Assembly (NCBI GenBank): GCA_029210775.1
Contig: JARGGI010000007.1
Span: 1 to 41,266, forward strand
Direction: 5' to 3'
Source of the DNA: Patescibacteria group bacterium
GTDB lineage: Bacteria > Patescibacteriota > Minisyncoccia > JAHIHE01 > JAGLIN01
DNA length: 41,266 nucleotides
Position 1 is the first letter of the stretch; the number at the start of each line of letters is the position of its first letter. Made by a program: the position numbers and the translations under genes. The notes beneath the pieces were generated by a model. It was not told the DNA's origin, made no database searches, and was given only the letters and a program-made list of their open reading frames with translations. Of this stretch, positions 1 to 19,598 are shown in pieces.

Positions 1-29
1 GTAGAGTGTCAAATCATTATTCACTCTTG

Positions 30-138
30 TGTCATTGCGAGAGAGTTAAGCGACCGAAGCAATCCCATATTTAGCATCACATATATTGCGATTCGTAGTT
101 TATAATAATGTGATTGCCACGATCCGCTCGCAATGACA
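30..138. repeat. Interspersed palindromic repeat, copy 1 (TGTCATTGCGAG...CTCGCAATGACA)
   Basis: 12-bp terminal inverted repeat TGTCATTGCGAG / CTCGCAATGACA; second copy at 2279-2407. Confidence 0.8.
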
Positions 139-1652: not shown

Positions 1653-2111
1653 TTACTGAACTATTGCATGAATGTATATTATATTCTCAGTATATGTTTC
1701 GTAGCGGAATCTATAACCAATGGTATTGCTTCCACTATACAGGATTTGAGTTGTTTTTGACCAATAATATTCAACAGCAACTGACCTCCATACGTGCCAC
1801 TGATCATTTGGGTTTGCCATGTCTTTCCACGCAAATTCTATGATGGGTGGACCATACTTTGGATCATCTGGTTTCAGCAAATAAGACAAATCTGCATGCC
1901 AAGTAGAAAACATTCTATTTCCTTGTTGATAAGGATAGAAATTTATTTCTACAGTATCGCCTGGATGAAGCCAAAAACCTGTTTCCTGCCCAGTAATTAG
2001 CGGGGCACGCACTATTTCCGTTGCTTCCGCTGTCGTTGCCATGGCAAACATTGCCACTATTAGCAGTAATAAAACTACTGATATTCTCGCTTTATTTTTC
2101 TTTTTTGTCAT
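1653..2111 (-). CDS. Secreted protein of unknown function with signal peptide
   Basis: ATG preceded by GAGGTGAT; n-region KKKNK, hydrophobic core, cleavage near TTAEA. Confidence 0.8.
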   Translation of the reverse strand: MTKKKNKARISVVLLLLIVAMFAMATTAEATEIVRAPLITGQETGFWLHPGDTVEINFYPYQQGNRMFSTWHADLSYLLKPDDPKYGPPIIEFAWKDMANPNDQWHVWRSVAVEYYWSKTTQILYSGSNTIGYRFRYETYTENIIYIHAIVQ

Positions 2112-2230: not shown

Positions 2231-2261
2231 ATAATAGCAAAAAAAAAATGTAGAGTGTCAA
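2231..2261 (-). promoter_or_regulatory. Poly-T-spacer promoter P1 (TTGACA-N19 with T10-TATTAT)
   Basis: rc: TTGACA CTCTACA T10 GC TATTAT; extended -10 TGC. Confidence 0.65.
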
Positions 2262-6132: not shown

Positions 6133-6708
6133 TTATCCATTAAAAATGCTTGCTAAAACCTCATTCTTCCCTTCTCCGCTTTTTGCCGAGTAAAAAATAA
6201 TTTTCTTGCCACCCGCCTTTTTGTATATCTCTTTTAATTTTTTACTTCTTTCGCTTCTTTTTAATTTATCTTCCTTATTCGCAACAATTATAAATTCATG
6301 ACCATTTTCATTTAAAATATCAATCATTTCCAAATCAAGCTTCGTGAGACCAACTCTCGCATCAACAATCATAACAATTTTTCTGTTCGCAATTTCAACG
6401 GAAATCAAATACCACAAAATTAATTGTCTAATTTTTTCCCTTTGTTCAAAAGATGCTTTTGCAAAACCATACCCTGGTAAATCAACAAAATAAATTTTTT
6501 CATTAATAAGAAAAAAATTAATCTCTTTTGTCTTTCCTGGAGTTGAACTTGATTTCACTAATTTTTTTCTTCCTACCAAAGAATTTATCACGCTTGATTT
6601 TCCAACATTAGACCTTCCTATAAACGCAACTTGAAGCTTATTTTCTTCTAATATCCTATCCGCTCCAATCACAACTCCCTTCACAAATTCAGCTGATTTA
6701 ATACTCAT
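6133..6708 (-). CDS. engB: Ribosome biogenesis GTPase YihA/EngB
   Basis: GRSNVGKSSVINSL, TPGKTKEINFF, DLPGYGFA, NKEDK motifs. Confidence 0.95.
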   Translation of the reverse strand: MSIKSAEFVKGVVIGADRILEENKLQVAFIGRSNVGKSSVINSLVGRKKLVKSSSTPGKTKEINFFLINEKIYFVDLPGYGFAKASFEQREKIRQLILWYLISVEIANRKIVMIVDARVGLTKLDLEMIDILNENGHEFIIVANKEDKLKRSERSKKLKEIYKKAGGKKIIFYSAKSGEGKNEVLASIFNG

Positions 6709-7892
6709 ATTTTTAATTTAAACATTTTAGATAAACTTTTGCTTTTAACAATTTTCCACCTCACAAGTAAATTAGAAAACAAAAAAGGAACTATAAAATT
6801 AAAGATTACACTTGAAGTAATGATAACTGAATACAATTCAATTCCGATTAGACCTTCTTGAAATAATATTTTTGTGATAATAATACTTGTACTAAACTTA
6901 ACAGAAAGTCCTATACCTAATAAAATTGATTCTTTTTTTCCTAATTCCTTTTTGGTCAAAAAATAACTTGAGACTATTTTCACACTCTTTGTGACTACAA
7001 TAATCAATAGTATTACAAGTGGATATTTAATTAATATATCGACGCTAACAAACATTCCAACCCACAAAAAGAATATTGGTGCGAAAAAACCATAAGAAAT
7101 TGCTTTAACTTCTTTTTCAACTAAATCTAATCTCTTTTGATGCATAAAAGTTTTCAAAGAAATTCCTGCAAGAAGAGCAGCAAGAGGAGTGGCATCAGCA
7201 TAGATTCCAATTCCGAGAAACAAAAACAAAATAAAAATTGAAAAAATAAACATCGTATCAACATTCATAAATCGAAACTGTTCTCCTTCTTGTCTGAAAT
7301 GTACAAATCCAGCAGTCAGTAAAAATAAAATTATAAGAGATATTAAAGTTATGTAAATCCTACTTGGGTCGTGAGAAGTTATTAAAACAGAGACAATAAT
7401 CAATATTAATATTTCAATAATATTACCCGTAACCCCAATGTCAACAATTGCTCTTCCTAATTTTGTCTTAAGCATCCTAAACTCATCTAAAAGAGGAATT
7501 AAAATAACTTCTCCAACAGAAGCAAAAGATAGCGAAACTAAAAATGAAATAAACCAGTCATAAGCAAAAATATAATAAACAATTAAACTTCCAAAAATTG
7601 CTTCAAAAAAAATAATTACAAATGTTGATTTCAAAATAAACCGTTCTTTTTTCTTCAATTCCTGCAAGTTTATTTCAAAACCAACAATAAATAGTAAGAA
7701 ATACATTCCAAGCTCAGCCATAAAAATAAATGTCTGTGAATTTGTGGCAGAACTAAAAGGATTATAAATCGCAAGTAAAAATCCAAAAATTAATGATGCA
7801 AATATCCATGGCACTCTAATTTTTTCCAAAAATCTTCCAAATATAAAAATGAACAAAAAAGCTGTACTGATGAATAAAAATAAATTTTGCAT
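6705..7892 (-). CDS. Cation:proton antiporter (CPA2-like)
   Basis: About 12 TM segments; GIGIYADATPLAALLAGISL and PIFFLWVGM motifs; overlaps engB start. Confidence 0.85.
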   Translation of the reverse strand: MQNLFLFISTAFLFIFIFGRFLEKIRVPWIFASLIFGFLLAIYNPFSSATNSQTFIFMAELGMYFLLFIVGFEINLQELKKKERFILKSTFVIIFFEAIFGSLIVYYIFAYDWFISFLVSLSFASVGEVILIPLLDEFRMLKTKLGRAIVDIGVTGNIIEILILIIVSVLITSHDPSRIYITLISLIILFLLTAGFVHFRQEGEQFRFMNVDTMFIFSIFILFLFLGIGIYADATPLAALLAGISLKTFMHQKRLDLVEKEVKAISYGFFAPIFFLWVGMFVSVDILIKYPLVILLIIVVTKSVKIVSSYFLTKKELGKKESILLGIGLSVKFSTSIIITKILFQEGLIGIELYSVIITSSVIFNFIVPFLFSNLLVRWKIVKSKSLSKMFKLKI

Positions 7893-8291: not shown

Positions 8292-9143
8292 ATGCAAATT
8301 AAAAAAAATATATTAGACAATAGAAAATATATTTTAATCGCCGTGCTTTTAACCTTTGCTATTGGCGGAGGAATTTTAAGTTATTTTCTAAACAAAAAAG
8401 TGGCCGTGCCTGTTTCTCAAAAAGAAGATGTTAAAAAAGAGGAGATTCAGAAAGAAGAAAAAACTGCTCCTATTATTCCAATTCAACCAAAAGAAGAATG
8501 GAAAAAATACACTAACACTGAATCGGGTTTTTCAATAAAATATCCCGAGATGGTGTATGGAGTTTATAAATGCTCTCCCAAAAAACCATTCTATGTTCCA
8601 TTAAAAGTGCTTGAGGATAATGAAAATGGAATAGTTTATATTACGCAGGAATATTATTACAAAGCAAAATACGATAGTGAATTAAATGAATATACTGGAC
8701 CGTGTGAAAAAATAATAAATTCTTTAAAATATTTAAACAGTCAAAGAGAAATTATTATAGATATTAATGATAAAGCAAGTCTAAATTATAATTCTTTTCT
8801 AACAAAAGTTTTTATTATAAAAAACATAAAAAACGATATTGAACTGAACAAATTTATCAAAGATAATTATGGTCCAGGATGCTTCGCGGGCGAAAAAGAA
8901 TTATGGAAACAAGTAGGAGTTTACGAAATAAAAATAAAAGGCGAAGACTGGGGTCCAAAAACAGACTTAGGAATTACAAGCTGTCCATGGAACTACACTT
9001 ACAAAATTTTATACGCTCCTGAAAAAAATAAATTGATGTCAGTAAATCTCGGGCAAGAGTGTGGTTTCGGAACTAAATATATTTCAGAAGAATCGTATAA
9101 GTGCTATGATAATGAAATGATTGATAGTTTTCGATTTGAATAA
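8292..9143 (+). CDS. Membrane-anchored hypothetical protein, paralog of 340..1185
   Basis: Shared motifs GFSIKYPEMVYGVYKC, VPLKVLEDNENGIVYIT, LGQECGF, CYDNEMIDSF. Confidence 0.85.
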   Translation: MQIKKNILDNRKYILIAVLLTFAIGGGILSYFLNKKVAVPVSQKEDVKKEEIQKEEKTAPIIPIQPKEEWKKYTNTESGFSIKYPEMVYGVYKCSPKKPFYVPLKVLEDNENGIVYITQEYYYKAKYDSELNEYTGPCEKIINSLKYLNSQREIIIDINDKASLNYNSFLTKVFIIKNIKNDIELNKFIKDNYGPGCFAGEKELWKQVGVYEIKIKGEDWGPKTDLGITSCPWNYTYKILYAPEKNKLMSVNLGQECGFGTKYISEESYKCYDNEMIDSFRFE

Positions 9144-9226: not shown

Positions 9227-9850
9227 CTACGGAACTCTTACAATATAATAGTTGTCGGCATTACTAACACCAAAGCCAGATCGTTTTAACAAGTGTTTCC
9301 CTATTAAAAGTGGGCTAACATAATTCTGATCCCAAACATAGAAGCCATCAACAATCCAACCCCCATTGTATGTCCAGTGCCATTGATCAAATACTGCCAC
9401 ATGACCATAATATGTATGGGGATCTGAAAATGTTGCTATAACAGTTCCTCGCGTTATGCTTCCGTCGTCAAACACGCGATTTCCACGTTCCCAATCGCCA
9501 GATGAAATACCTCCAGTATTACTCATTGCTTTCGCAAAATCCACGCATTGGCCGTTTCCTATTCTTATAACAGTTGTTGAACCATATTGTACTGGGGTTT
9601 TACTCTTACCATATGTATTAAGAGTTTGACCATAATAATATTTTAGCAAATAAGGCTTCTGTCCTACACCGCCAGAATACCACGCGTTACTACTATAACC
9701 TCCATAAGTATATGTATATAGAAGGTTCACATTCTCTGTGGTCACTTTCAAATCGTGTGCGGCTTCCGCTGTCGTTACTGTCGCAAATACTGCCACCATT
9801 AGCAGTCCTGCAACTGCCAATATTATTGTTTTATTTATTTTATCTTCCAT
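9227..9850 (-). CDS. Secreted CHAP/BPSL0067-like cysteine hydrolase
   Basis: Signal peptide; GNGQCVDFAKAM (Cys), GTVIATF, YGHVAVFDQW (His), WIVDGFYVWDQNY; start set after GAGGTGAT SD. Confidence 0.7.
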   Translation of the reverse strand: MEDKINKTIILAVAGLLMVAVFATVTTAEAAHDLKVTTENVNLLYTYTYGGYSSNAWYSGGVGQKPYLLKYYYGQTLNTYGKSKTPVQYGSTTVIRIGNGQCVDFAKAMSNTGGISSGDWERGNRVFDDGSITRGTVIATFSDPHTYYGHVAVFDQWHWTYNGGWIVDGFYVWDQNYVSPLLIGKHLLKRSGFGVSNADNYYIVRVP

Positions 9851-9898
9851 TTCTATCACCTCAAGTGATCGTTTTTATTTTGTTCGCAATTCTATCCC

Positions 9899-9918
9899 GC
9901 AAACTTTTTTAAGTTTGC
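9899..9918 (-). promoter_or_regulatory. 5'-leader stem-loop
   Basis: GCAAACTT-TTTT-AAGTTTGC perfect inverted repeat; identical at 11883-11902. Confidence 0.6.
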
Positions 9919-9979
9919 CTTTTTATTTTTATTTATTTTTTCAACGAACTTTTTATCTCCCTCCTTTTGATATAAAACA

Positions 9980-10011
9980 ATAATAGCGAAAAAAAAAATG
10001 TGAATTGTCAA
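9980..10011 (-). promoter_or_regulatory. Poly-T-spacer promoter P2 (N20, T10)
   Basis: rc: TTGACA ATTCACA T10 CGC TATTAT. Confidence 0.65.
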
Positions 10012-10062
10012 ATTTTAAAAATAATTAATCATATTTTTTCTCTCAAAATTTCCCAATAAAAA

Positions 10063-10100
10063 GTAGTGTATTTTGCAACGGCCGTGAAAAAATACACTAC
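10063..10100 (-). terminator. Stem-loop upstream of promoter P2, terminator-like on minus strand
   Basis: GTAGTGTATTTT/AAAATACACTAC 12-bp stem; rc followed by TTTTTATT. Confidence 0.45.
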
Positions 10101-10259
10101 AGTAAAAATATTAAAATTAGTAATAAATCAATATGTAAATACGCAAAAGACTCCACTTGGGAGAATGGAGCCAGTTTAGCACAAAAGGCTCCACAGCCCT
10201 AAAGGGACTCATGGAGCCAGCGCCTAACTTTGTTATAAGTTATAGGTTGTAAGATAAAG

Positions 10260-10397
10260 TGTCGGGGCGCCGAGGTATACTTGGAAACAAATTTGGGGTG
10301 ATTTGGGTGGAGATTTTGGAGAATTAGGAGAGCCTGCCATTCGGCGGGCAGGAGTTGAGGGGAAGTTGGAGATGGTGGAGAGGTTGATGAAATAAAA
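10260..10397. repeat. Intergenic module copy 1 starting with tRNA-Pro 3'-end fragment
   Basis: TGTCGGGGCGCCGAGGTATA...CCTGCCATTCGGCGGGCAGGAGTTGAGGGGAAGTTGG...; homolog at 15232. Confidence 0.85.
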
Positions 10398-11261: not shown

Positions 11262-11846
11262 TTAGTAATTGTGCGTATCCTTTAGGAGAAGTACTCTAAA
11301 TTGAATCTCTGGCTGCTCACGTATCAAATCTGATACTTTTTTATTGACCCGATTATTAGAGTGATATGTTACATACACATCTGTGCCATCAATTTTTGTG
11401 ATGATCATTGAATGATCCCATTTTCCATCGCTAGTCCAATCCGCTTGCATAACATCGCCGACTGTAAATTGCGTTGGTCTTGTCCAGACATCACTGCGTG
11501 AAAAAGGTATTTCTCTTCCTCTTCCTGAGAGAATGACAAAATCCCTAAACTGTTCTACGCTTGTCCATGAATTAGAGTATTGACGCCATAGATAGCTATC
11601 ATAGTACCATATCATGCCAGTTTTTCTTTGTGTCCAGCCACCAGCTTTTAGTGAATGTGACACAAAATTTGTACAATCACCACCACCTGTATTAAAATAC
11701 CACGAACCTGGTACATTTTTTTCTCCATTGGCTATGGCATAATTTACCGTTGTTTGACGATTGTATATGTACGCACTTGCTATTCCTGTACTGCTTGCTA
11801 TTATGGCTAATACCAACATAACAAGAACTACTTTCTTTACTTTCAC
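11262..11846 (-). CDS. Secreted Amidase_6-like (putative amidase domain) protein
   Basis: Signal peptide; YNRQTTVNYA, GGDCTNFVSHSLKAGGW (Cys), WDHSMIITK (His); GTG start after AAGAGGTGATAAG. Confidence 0.8.
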   Translation of the reverse strand: MKVKKVVLVMLVLAIIASSTGIASAYIYNRQTTVNYAIANGEKNVPGSWYFNTGGGDCTNFVSHSLKAGGWTQRKTGMIWYYDSYLWRQYSNSWTSVEQFRDFVILSGRGREIPFSRSDVWTRPTQFTVGDVMQADWTSDGKWDHSMIITKIDGTDVYVTYHSNNRVNKKVSDLIREQPEIQFRVLLLKDTHNY

Positions 11847-11866
11847 CTTATCACCTCTTATACTTT

Positions 11867-11942
11867 TTCGCAATTCTATCCCGCAAACTTTTTTAAGTTT
11901 GCCTTTTTATTTTTATTTATTTTTTCAACGAACTTTTTATCT
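11867..11942. repeat. Leader repeat identical to 9883-9958 (76 bp)
   Basis: ttcgcaattctatcccgcaaactttttt...aacgaactttttatct identical by eye. Confidence 0.9.
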
Positions 11943-11962
11943 TCCTTTTTTTGATATTTCAA

Positions 11963-11992
11963 ATAATAGCAAAAAAAAAGAGATGTTGTCAA
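11963..11992 (-). promoter_or_regulatory. Poly-T-spacer promoter P3 (N18, T9)
   Basis: rc: TTGACA ACATCTC T9 GC TATTAT. Confidence 0.65.
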
Positions 11993-12768: not shown

Positions 12769-13191
12769 TTACATATATTTCCAATATTCGTGAGGTTTCA
12801 AGTCCTGATAGTAGTATTCTATACCCGAAACTGTTTTTCCAATCCAGGAATGGAACCAGATTTCTTCTTTTACCGAATAGAAAGTTCTTTCTTGTTTCCA
12901 CTCTGGAGTAGCCATAACAGAATACGTTATACTTCTAAGCAAGGATACATCTCCATTTCGAATAGCTTTTGCTCCCTCTTCTGTCAGATATAATCTACAG
13001 CCATAGCCATATCCTCTGTCGTATACCGTGTCATATTCTACACGATCTACATAGAGCTTGAGAGCAGATGTAATATCACTGTGCTCGTATTGTACTGCGG
13101 AATGCCCGTCAAAATCATTGTATGTTTTCGCCGAAGCTGCCGGCGTTAGCGATAGTGTCGCCACCAACGCTAATCCAAATATTACTACCAT
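12769..13191 (-). CDS. Secreted protein of unknown function, paralog of 14524..14953
   Basis: Hydrophobic signal, AASAKTY; motifs HSAVQYEHSDITSALKLYVDRVEYD shared with 14953 ORF. Confidence 0.8.
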   Translation of the reverse strand: MVVIFGLALVATLSLTPAASAKTYNDFDGHSAVQYEHSDITSALKLYVDRVEYDTVYDRGYGYGCRLYLTEEGAKAIRNGDVSLLRSITYSVMATPEWKQERTFYSVKEEIWFHSWIGKTVSGIEYYYQDLKPHEYWKYM

Positions 13192-13281
13192 TGTCTTTGT
13201 CGCTTTTATTTTCTCACCTCTTTTTATTTTTATGCCTCTGCGTCATTAGAAATAAAACATTGTTTCGTTTTTATTCCCTCT

Positions 13282-13328
13282 TCAGAGACAGTGAAAATTT
13301 TCTAAAATTTAAAAACTCACACTGTCTC
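13282..13328 (-). promoter_or_regulatory. 5'-leader stem-loop of 12769..13191
   Basis: AGAGACAGTG...CACTGTCTCT 10-bp perfect inverted repeat. Confidence 0.6.
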
Positions 13329-13374
13329 TAAAAATTTTAAGAGGCGTATTTTTTTATTTTATTTTTATTTTTGA

Positions 13375-13588
13375 ACGAACTTTTTATCTCCTCCTTTTAA
13401 TATAAAACAATAATAGCGAAAAAAAAATGTGAATTGTCAAATTTTAAAAATAATTAATCATATTTTTTCTCTCAAAATTTCCCAATAAAAAGTAGTGTAT
13501 TTTGCAACAGCCGTGAAAAAATACACTACAGTAAAAATATTAAAATTAGTAATAAATCAATATGTAAATACGCAAAAGACTCCACTTG
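13375..13588. repeat. Promoter-region duplicate, copy B
   Basis: Near-identical to 9946-10159; poly-A one nt shorter. Confidence 0.9.
13410..13440 (-). promoter_or_regulatory. Poly-T-spacer promoter P4 (N19, T9)
   Basis: rc: TTGACA ATTCACA T9 CGC TATTAT. Confidence 0.65.
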
Positions 13589-13641
13589 AAAGAATAGGCT
13601 AACAATAAAAAAAAATCGCTATGATAAACGATTATTTTGTG

Positions 13642-13780
13642 TGTCGGGGCGACGAGATGCAGTTAGAAATAATTCCACGTCTGTTTAGACTGGGAATTTT
13701 GGAGAATTAGAAAAGTCTGCCTGCCGTAGGCATATCCTGACTGTCGTATGCATAGCCTGTCTGCCGGAAGATTTCTTTAA
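13642..13780. repeat. Degenerate intergenic module copy 2 with CCTGCCGTAGGCAT tandem units
   Basis: TGTCGGGGCGACGAG, GATTTTGGAGAATTAG-like text, then 20-bp imperfect tandem units. Confidence 0.65.
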
Positions 13781-14515: not shown

Positions 14516-14523
14516 ATTTTGCC

Positions 14524-14953
14524 TTACATTAGATTATAGGGTGTTTCCCATGATTTCAGGTCGGCATAACGATATTCAATATCTACTACCATTCTGTTAG
14601 GCCAAATACCATGTTGAATAATCTCGTATTTTACCGAACGAAGAGATCTATCGCCAGACCATTCTGGAGCATACATAACATTATATGCAATTGATTCAGC
14701 AAGGTTTGGATAAAACAACAGCTGTTTTGCCCCAATCTGTAAAGTATAGCCTAGCACCAGCTCCTGAAGAACATACTATATCATACTCAATATGATCGAC
14801 AAACGGTCGAAGCGCTAACGAAATATCACTATGTTCATATCTTACTGCATCATGCCCCGCAAATGTATAATAGGTCTTTGCCGAGACTGGTGCTATCATT
14901 ACGCATAGCAATATTAGAAATATCGCCATTGAAATTATTGTTCTTATTCTCAC
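14524..14953 (-). pseudogene. Frameshifted secreted-protein gene, paralog of 12769..13191
   Basis: Two overlapping ORFs (14696..14953 and 14524..14757) align consecutively to the intact paralog; shift near GGGG at 14730-14733. Confidence 0.75.
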
Positions 14954-15089
14954 TTTATCACATCCAATTTATTTTGTCTGTATTTTCTATATTTCTTTCT
15001 ATTTTCAATTTATAAGCTATTCAACTGACAATTATATTTTATTTTTGTTTTAATAAATTACAGACTATCACCTCCTTTAATATAAAACA

Positions 15090-15120
15090 ATAATAGCAAA
15101 AAAAAAATGTGAATTGTCAA
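15090..15120 (-). promoter_or_regulatory. Poly-T-spacer promoter P5 (N19, T10)
   Basis: rc: TTGACA ATTCACA T10 GC TATTAT. Confidence 0.65.
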
Positions 15121-15231: not shown

Positions 15232-15360
15232 TGTCGGGGCGCCGAGGTATAGTTGGGAACAATTTCCTGGCGACTTGGGCGAGGATTTTGGATAATTGGG
15301 AGAGCCTGCCATTCGGCGGGCGGGAGTTGAGGGAAAGTTGAGGAGGTTGATGAGATAAAA
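15232..15360. repeat. Intergenic module copy 3
   Basis: TGTCGGGGCGCCGAGGTATAGTTGGGAAC...CCTGCCATTCGGCGGGCGGGAGTTGAGGGAAAGTTG. Confidence 0.85.
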
Positions 15361-19473: not shown

Positions 19474-19525
19474 AGCGCCTAACTTTGTTATAAGTTATAG
19501 GTTGTGAGTTATAAGTTAATATTTG

Positions 19526-19598
19526 TCGGGGCGCCGAGATTCGAACTCGGAGTCCCTTGGTCCCAAACCAAGTGCGTTAGCCGTTACGCTACGCCCCG
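19526..19598 (-). tRNA. tRNA-Pro (anticodon TGG)
   Basis: rc folds as cloverleaf: CGGGGCG/CGCCCCG acceptor, CTTGG-TTTGGGA-CCAAG anticodon arm, CCGAG-TTCGAAT-CTCGG T arm; CCA not encoded. Confidence 0.95.

Follow-up and report, generated by a model that had tools for sequence, protein, structure and literature searches.

Homopolymer tracts in the promoter spacers of exported-protein genes: candidate contingency promoters in a tRNA-Pro-linked island of Patescibacteria

Background

A near-perfect repeat upstream of two unrelated secreted genes, whose copies differ in the length of a homopolymer, raises the question of whether that run has a part in setting transcription or is incidental to the spread of the repeat. 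The case considered here comes from a 41,266-nucleotide stretch of DNA (hereafter the window), which is contig C63 of a draft genome of 1.17 Mb in 65 contigs, rated 100% complete and assigned to the Patescibacteria (Paceibacteria-like). An initial annotation had reported a recent promoter-region duplication of about 210 bp at this locus, and had taken the unequal homopolymers of the two copies as a sign of rapid slippage. Using alignments, pattern scans and comparisons with related and public genomes, we place this homopolymer within a family of similarly built promoters. On the balance of these sequence comparisons, slippage-tuned, phase-variable transcription of exported proteins appears to be the best explanation, and we hold it to be somewhat probable.

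Results and discussion

The duplicated block and its homopolymer

The duplication is real. Pairwise alignment and a repeat search alike recover two minus-strand copies of the block, namely 9946..10166, comprising the promoter u2 and an upstream region with a palindrome, and 13375..13595, carrying the promoter u4; within them, 9990-10166 and 13419-13595 align without gaps at 98% identity. A match of 177 nt at this identity within 41 kb is far beyond chance. As far as CTCCACTTG, a few bases past which identity is lost (~10166/13595), the alignment gives exactly the differences that the initial annotation had listed: two G/A substitutions (GATATA/AATATA and CGGCC/CAGCC), an indel in a C-run (CTCCCTCC versus CTCCTCC), and the homopolymer, which is A10 at 9989-9998 and A9 at 13419-13427. 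A recent duplication, or alternatively gene conversion, ahead of two unrelated secreted genes is thus well supported; the homopolymer is among the few differences between the copies. A search of the genome for more copies found no further full-length copy of the block; there are five promoters of the same build, plus a sixth that is truncated at the left end of the window. Two points had been missed earlier: the A10/A9 run belongs to a promoter read on the minus strand, where it sits between the -35 and -10 boxes, and besides u2 and u4 the window contains three others of this build.

The palindrome of the block lies at 10063..10100 (minus strand; copy at 13492-13529), is followed by TTTTTATT and resembles a terminator. 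Elements of this kind, 34-40 nt long with AGTGTATTTTGCAACGGCCGTTGCAAAATACACT as the best form and T's thereafter, are dispersed across several genera of the family (L023, L027, L028, L029, L031-L034) and also occur in contig C3 of the same genome (C3:80-126); they are either terminator-like or REP-like.

Five promoters of common build before secreted genes

Alignment of the regions upstream of the secreted genes yields a common minus-strand build, TTGACA-(7 nt)-T9/10-(2-3 nt: GC or CGC)-TATTAT. In all five window promoters a pure homopolymer lies between recognisable -35 and -10 boxes, starting 7 nt past the former and ending 2-3 nt before the latter, with tract lengths of T9, T9, T10, T10 and T10. 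Promoter u1 (2231..2261; TTGACA-CTCTACA-T10-GC-TATTAT, tract 2239-2248, spacer 19) stands before a secreted protein of 152 aa whose family was not recognised (1653..2111), and u2 (9980..10011; TTGACA-ATTCACA-T10-CGC-TATTAT, tract 9989-9998, spacer 20) before a secreted CHAP-like protein of 210 aa (9227..9859; CHAP E 0.00046, under the curated cut-off). The gene behind u3 (11963..11992; TTGACA-ACATCTC-T9-GC-TATTAT, tract 11971-11979, spacer 18) encodes a secreted protein of 203 aa with an Amidase_6 putative amidase domain (11262..11873; E 2.2e-29), and that behind u4 (13410..13440; TTGACA-ATTCACA-T9-CGC-TATTAT, tract 13419-13427, spacer 19) a secreted protein of 140 aa, again of no recognised family (12769..13191). 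Behind u5 (15090..15120; TTGACA-ATTCACA-T10-GC-TATTAT, tract 15098-15107, spacer 19) lies a paralogue of the 12769-13191 gene, the reading frame of which is broken in this assembly (~14523..14955). All these promoters and genes are on the minus strand. By repeat search, the minus-strand region 1..103 is 95% identical to 2250-2352 and represents the region upstream of the truncated sixth promoter; the left end of the window reads ..TTTGACACTCTAC, just short of where the tract of this promoter should begin. The signal-like N-terminal segments of the window genes, together with their CHAP and amidase domains, are the basis for predicting that their products act at the surface or outside the cell. 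Adjoining the secreted genes are also two paralogous genes for membrane-anchored proteins on the plus strand (274-1185 and 8292-9143), with 77% DNA identity over 251 nt.

The pattern TTGACAN{3,11}T7N{1,6}TATTAT has five matches genome-wide, all of them in this window, against none for the reversed control pattern, showing that the tract is over-represented at the spacer position. The window has only three A/T runs of 10, which are its longest homopolymers, and all three are in u-promoters; T9/A9 runs are also present in coding sequence, which makes a run of 9 unremarkable by itself. We also considered that the T run might be the tail of a terminator, and rejected this because there is no stem directly upstream. 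The five promoters are paralogues by sequence, and the position and T content of their tracts therefore count as one event, not five. Their paralogy is what would be expected of a static promoter family, in which promoter and leader were duplicated together, the T tract is a constant trait of AT-rich promoters, whether structural or compositional, and the A10/A9 difference is neutral drift. An extended -10 (TGC) is seen in three of the five (u1, u3 and u5); it may soften the effect of spacing and, in a static family, could make spacing unimportant.

Spacer lengths compared with public promoters

A scan of public genomes with TTGACA-N5..9-T7-N0..3-GC-TATTAT, a pattern permitting spacers of 14-21, returned at least 117 stretches. 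T tracts before the -10 box are thus common in ordinary promoters, and the occurrence of T7-T9 before GC-TATTAT in many of them across bacteria again suits a static family. However, such ordinary promoters keep to 16-18 nt even with T9-T11, which the window promoters do not. Among the 117 matches listed, the spacer is 16 in 8, 17 in 93, 18 in 14, 19 in 2 and 20 in none, so that 115 of these 117 unrelated promoters of the same build fall within 16-18; all 13 with T9 or longer, among the matches listed, have exactly 17. The public promoters hold 17 despite long tracts, and four of the five window promoters depart from that. Comparing the window spacers (18, 19, 19, 19, 20) with the 117 public matches listed, for spacers of 19 or more, Fisher's test gives p = 8e-6, a value that overstates independence because the five window promoters are related paralogues. 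A sigma-70 scan limited to spacers of 16-18 correspondingly detects only u3 of the five.

Relatives with the same promoter and other tracts

When 54 relatives were searched at the DNA level, the leader and promoter region turned up in several genera. We also built a covariance model of the leader from parts 3' of the promoter, which makes it blind to the tract; it gave 14 matches in seven genomes (that at 1263-1313 being partial), and a match in G004 was discarded as it looks coding. In G007, of the same family, one promoter has T8 with a spacer of 17 and another T7 with a spacer of 16, the tract starting 7 nt past the -35 box. The same offset is seen in G016, of another family, with C9 (spacer 19) and T9 (spacer 18). 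G005, found by a route other than the leader model, has T9 with a spacer of 18, and a second unit in it, nearly identical over 75 bp upstream, has a T7 tract. The 7-nt offset is hence constant across paralogues and relatives while spacers run through 16, 17, 18, 19 and 20; in other words, the flanks are kept while tract length shifts the spacing across the functional optimum. Before some leader-bearing genes (in G003, G006, G011 and G016:C39) a pure tract of comparable size is absent.

The C9 promoter of G016 has the same leader and offset and drives a secreted homologue 39% identical to the CHAP protein of the window. With its homologous protein, same leader, same offset and different base, it is the most telling case. 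A C9 tract within an AT-rich promoter is not explained by general T-richness, which we rejected as the sole cause of the tract on this case and on the poly-G cases that follow. In a class-wide scan of 384 genomes, TTGACNN{4,9}G8N{1,5}TANNAT has 19 matches in 16 genomes and its C8 version 4 matches, with reversed controls at 0 for both; the T9 version has 8 matches in 368 genomes, five of them in the present genome. Most of the poly-G tracts lie directly against the -10 box, and the spacers are 18-20. Related poly-G promoters within one genus have tracts of G10, G10, G11, G9 and G10, plus one interrupted as GGGGAGGG, with the leader conserved, and G058 has the identical promoter TTGACAAAATTCC-G12-TAAAAT before two type IV pilin-like genes that differ from each other. 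Roughly half of the genes with poly-G or poly-C promoters encode an export-type N-terminus; the others are hydrophilic, and no role was assigned to them. Several of these hydrophilic proteins without an export signal, encoded behind poly-G promoters, start with MGIEDG- or MPxPEE-like sequences and possibly form a family (L220, L221, L217, L224, L253, L255, L256).

Both the change of the tract to C9 before a homologue and the recurrence of poly-G and poly-C in the same spacer, with controls at zero, speak against a static promoter family, which we regard as unlikely. These comparisons also bear on the notion that the A10/A9 difference is an assembly or sequencing artefact, the homopolymer having been miscalled in the draft. 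The assembly is indeed a draft for which the read type is not given, and the window ends within a repeat, immediately short of a tract of this kind. Against this, the spacers of all five promoters are off the optimum, and tracts also differ between genomes of other genera that were assembled independently, so that the case does not depend on that single base; an artefact is accordingly very improbable.

A tRNA-Pro-linked island

The promoters are flanked by an antiporter/YihA-like gene pair (6133-7892) and by a tRNA-Pro(UGG) gene (19525..19598, minus strand) that anchors the island, an order that is kept in G007. The last 15 nt of this tRNA, CTCGGCGCCCCGACA, recur exactly or with one base off at three further sites (10260, 13642 and 15232). 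The first of these repeats (10260-10274, minus strand) is preceded by a conserved boundary of ~110 nt, the whole spanning 10260..10382; related repeats lie at 13642-13656 and 15232-15246, the latter with a boundary to 15354. The cassettes are thus bounded by direct repeats of the tRNA 3' end, as in tRNA-anchored elements. Arrays of such units are also found in G007, G006, G001, G010 and contig C23 of the same genome; in C23 a ResIII gene precedes the unit. The ~110-nt boundary is a conserved polypyrimidine stretch, and units combining it with the tRNA-Pro 3' end recur elsewhere (L185, L187, L188, L189, L024). One copy has a frame open through the tRNA end, but in view of the stops in other copies and of a length difference not divisible by three we disfavour a conserved coding sequence as the nature of the boundary. 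The arrayed units bound variable genes, such as those for secreted proteins, an acetyltransferase and ResIII, and possibly constitute a cassette system.

From their sequence, the repeats look like the outcome of repeated integration or recombination at the tRNA 3' end, and the promoter block was probably copied in this way. It could then be argued that the homopolymer is an incidental passenger of a mobile cassette, the block having been copied as one component of a unit that has tRNA-Pro 3'-end repeats at its borders. The presence of the tRNA-Pro 3' end and conserved boundary upstream of u2, u4 and u5, the arrays in the relatives and in C23, adjoining the ResIII gene, and the end of the u4 copy within the region following the tRNA end are all in line with this. 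On the other hand, no integrase gene was recognised among the window ORFs or adjoining the units in the DNA read, and copying of a cassette accounts for the spread of the block, not for the position of the tract in the spacer or its change of base. As a full account of the homopolymer it is doubtful, if slightly less so than a static family; it is compatible with slippage-tuned promoters, and the two can be true together.

The predicted 5' leaders

The 5' leader of u2 (about 9860-9973, minus strand) has AAAAGGAGG near its inferred 5' end, a hairpin of 8 bp formed by GCAAACTT-AAAA-AAGTTTGC (9899-9918) and a Shine-Dalgarno region; leaders of this family also occur at about 11863-11957 and 2138-2226. 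In a search of 1-20500 no leader or riboswitch family of Rfam was matched, the tRNA alone scoring above a family threshold. A GGAGG is found near the inferred 5' end of the u2-type leader, and no conserved ORF follows it, for which reason we rejected a translated leader peptide. Leaders of the cry3A type carry a 5' stabilising Shine-Dalgarno, and by analogy the GGAGG is possibly such an element. A second leader type, with a AGAGACAGTG...CACTGTCTCT hairpin, is seen at about 13270-13350.

Slippage as a tuning device

The slippage-tuned reading of these promoters also has to be seen together with the repair capacity of the organism. Loss of mismatch repair increases slippage in short homopolymers. 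This genome lacks the MutS ATPase domain, as do 17 of 18 genomes of its order; among 14 control genomes, 11 have it. We accordingly retain rapid slippage as a reading with indirect support, from the location of the tract in the spacer, the absence of MutS and the different tracts of relatives at a kept 7-nt offset; the single A10/A9 difference on which the initial annotation had based it would not prove it.

The block provides a sigma-70-type promoter on the minus strand for exported-protein genes, with the T run filling most of the -35/-10 spacer, and on this we base a proposed mechanism. Slippage of the replication polymerase would add or remove T's, and would go unchecked because MutS is missing. 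With the number of T's the spacer would vary from about 16 to about 20 nt, and transcription would go up or down with it, each gene being tuned independently of its neighbours. The predicted result is transcriptional phase variation at contingency loci, giving a mosaic of secreted proteins that are probably aimed at host cells. By spacing alone, the assembled tract lengths are expected to make u3 (18) the most active promoter, with u2 (20) at the other extreme. The window promoters are therefore best viewed as candidate, rather than proven, members of the class of simple-sequence-repeat contingency promoters with the repeat in the -35/-10 spacer, because two defining features, variation in the population and an effect on expression, rest on inference.

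Three known systems offer points of comparison. In the vlp system of Mycoplasma hyorhinis (Citti and Wise 1995, as described in PMC10502178), experiments showed that the length of a promoter-region poly-A tract switches the transcription of each gene independently. The present locus shares with it an exported-protein gene family, a small genome and a promoter-region homopolymer for each gene; unlike the vlp genes, which encode lipoproteins of a Mycoplasma facing its host, it encodes secreted enzymes and unassigned proteins, the tract is of T (C or G in relatives) and switching is predicted from sequence. In porA-type promoters of Neisseria meningitidis (van der Ende 1995, cited in PMC5084427), a homopolymer lies between the -35 and -10 boxes and its length sets their spacing. 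The location of the tract is the same here, and the class-wide poly-G tracts directly against the -10 box are a further likeness, but porA-type cases concern single genes of a proteobacterium for which population data exist, in contrast to a paralogous promoter set in a tRNA-linked island of Patescibacteria. In the Streptococcus pyogenes HT Spy1336-7 system, a single T in a T9/T10/T11 tract strongly alters transcription (PMC7098570). The tracts of 9-10 here compare with the 9, 10 or 11 there; the S. pyogenes system differs in being one divergent gene pair, for which its authors favour altered spacing of regulator sites, not of the -35 and -10 boxes.

Conclusions

Taking the window and the class together, we tentatively suggest, at a little under even chances, that spacer homopolymers of T, C and G are a recurrent, lineage-wide phase-variation device of Paceibacteria without mismatch repair, diversifying exported proteins (cell-wall-hydrolase-like and type IV pilin-like ones) within one population and spread in the present genome as tRNA-Pro-adjacent cassettes. 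For Patescibacteria, Saccharibacteria and Parcubacteria, the literature searched, which left most subscription journals outside, yielded nothing relevant about phase variation, and a spacer-homopolymer on/off dial of this type is apparently new for Patescibacteria. The group is very large; its members are small, for the most part uncultured and probably host-dependent, and the variation of their host-facing proteins is largely a blank. The source bacterium itself probably lives on other microbes. If the proposal is true, existing metagenome reads would already hold the answer, as mixtures of tract lengths at a few defined positions could be counted without cultivation, and the tracts so counted would adjoin genes with a likely part in attachment and attack.
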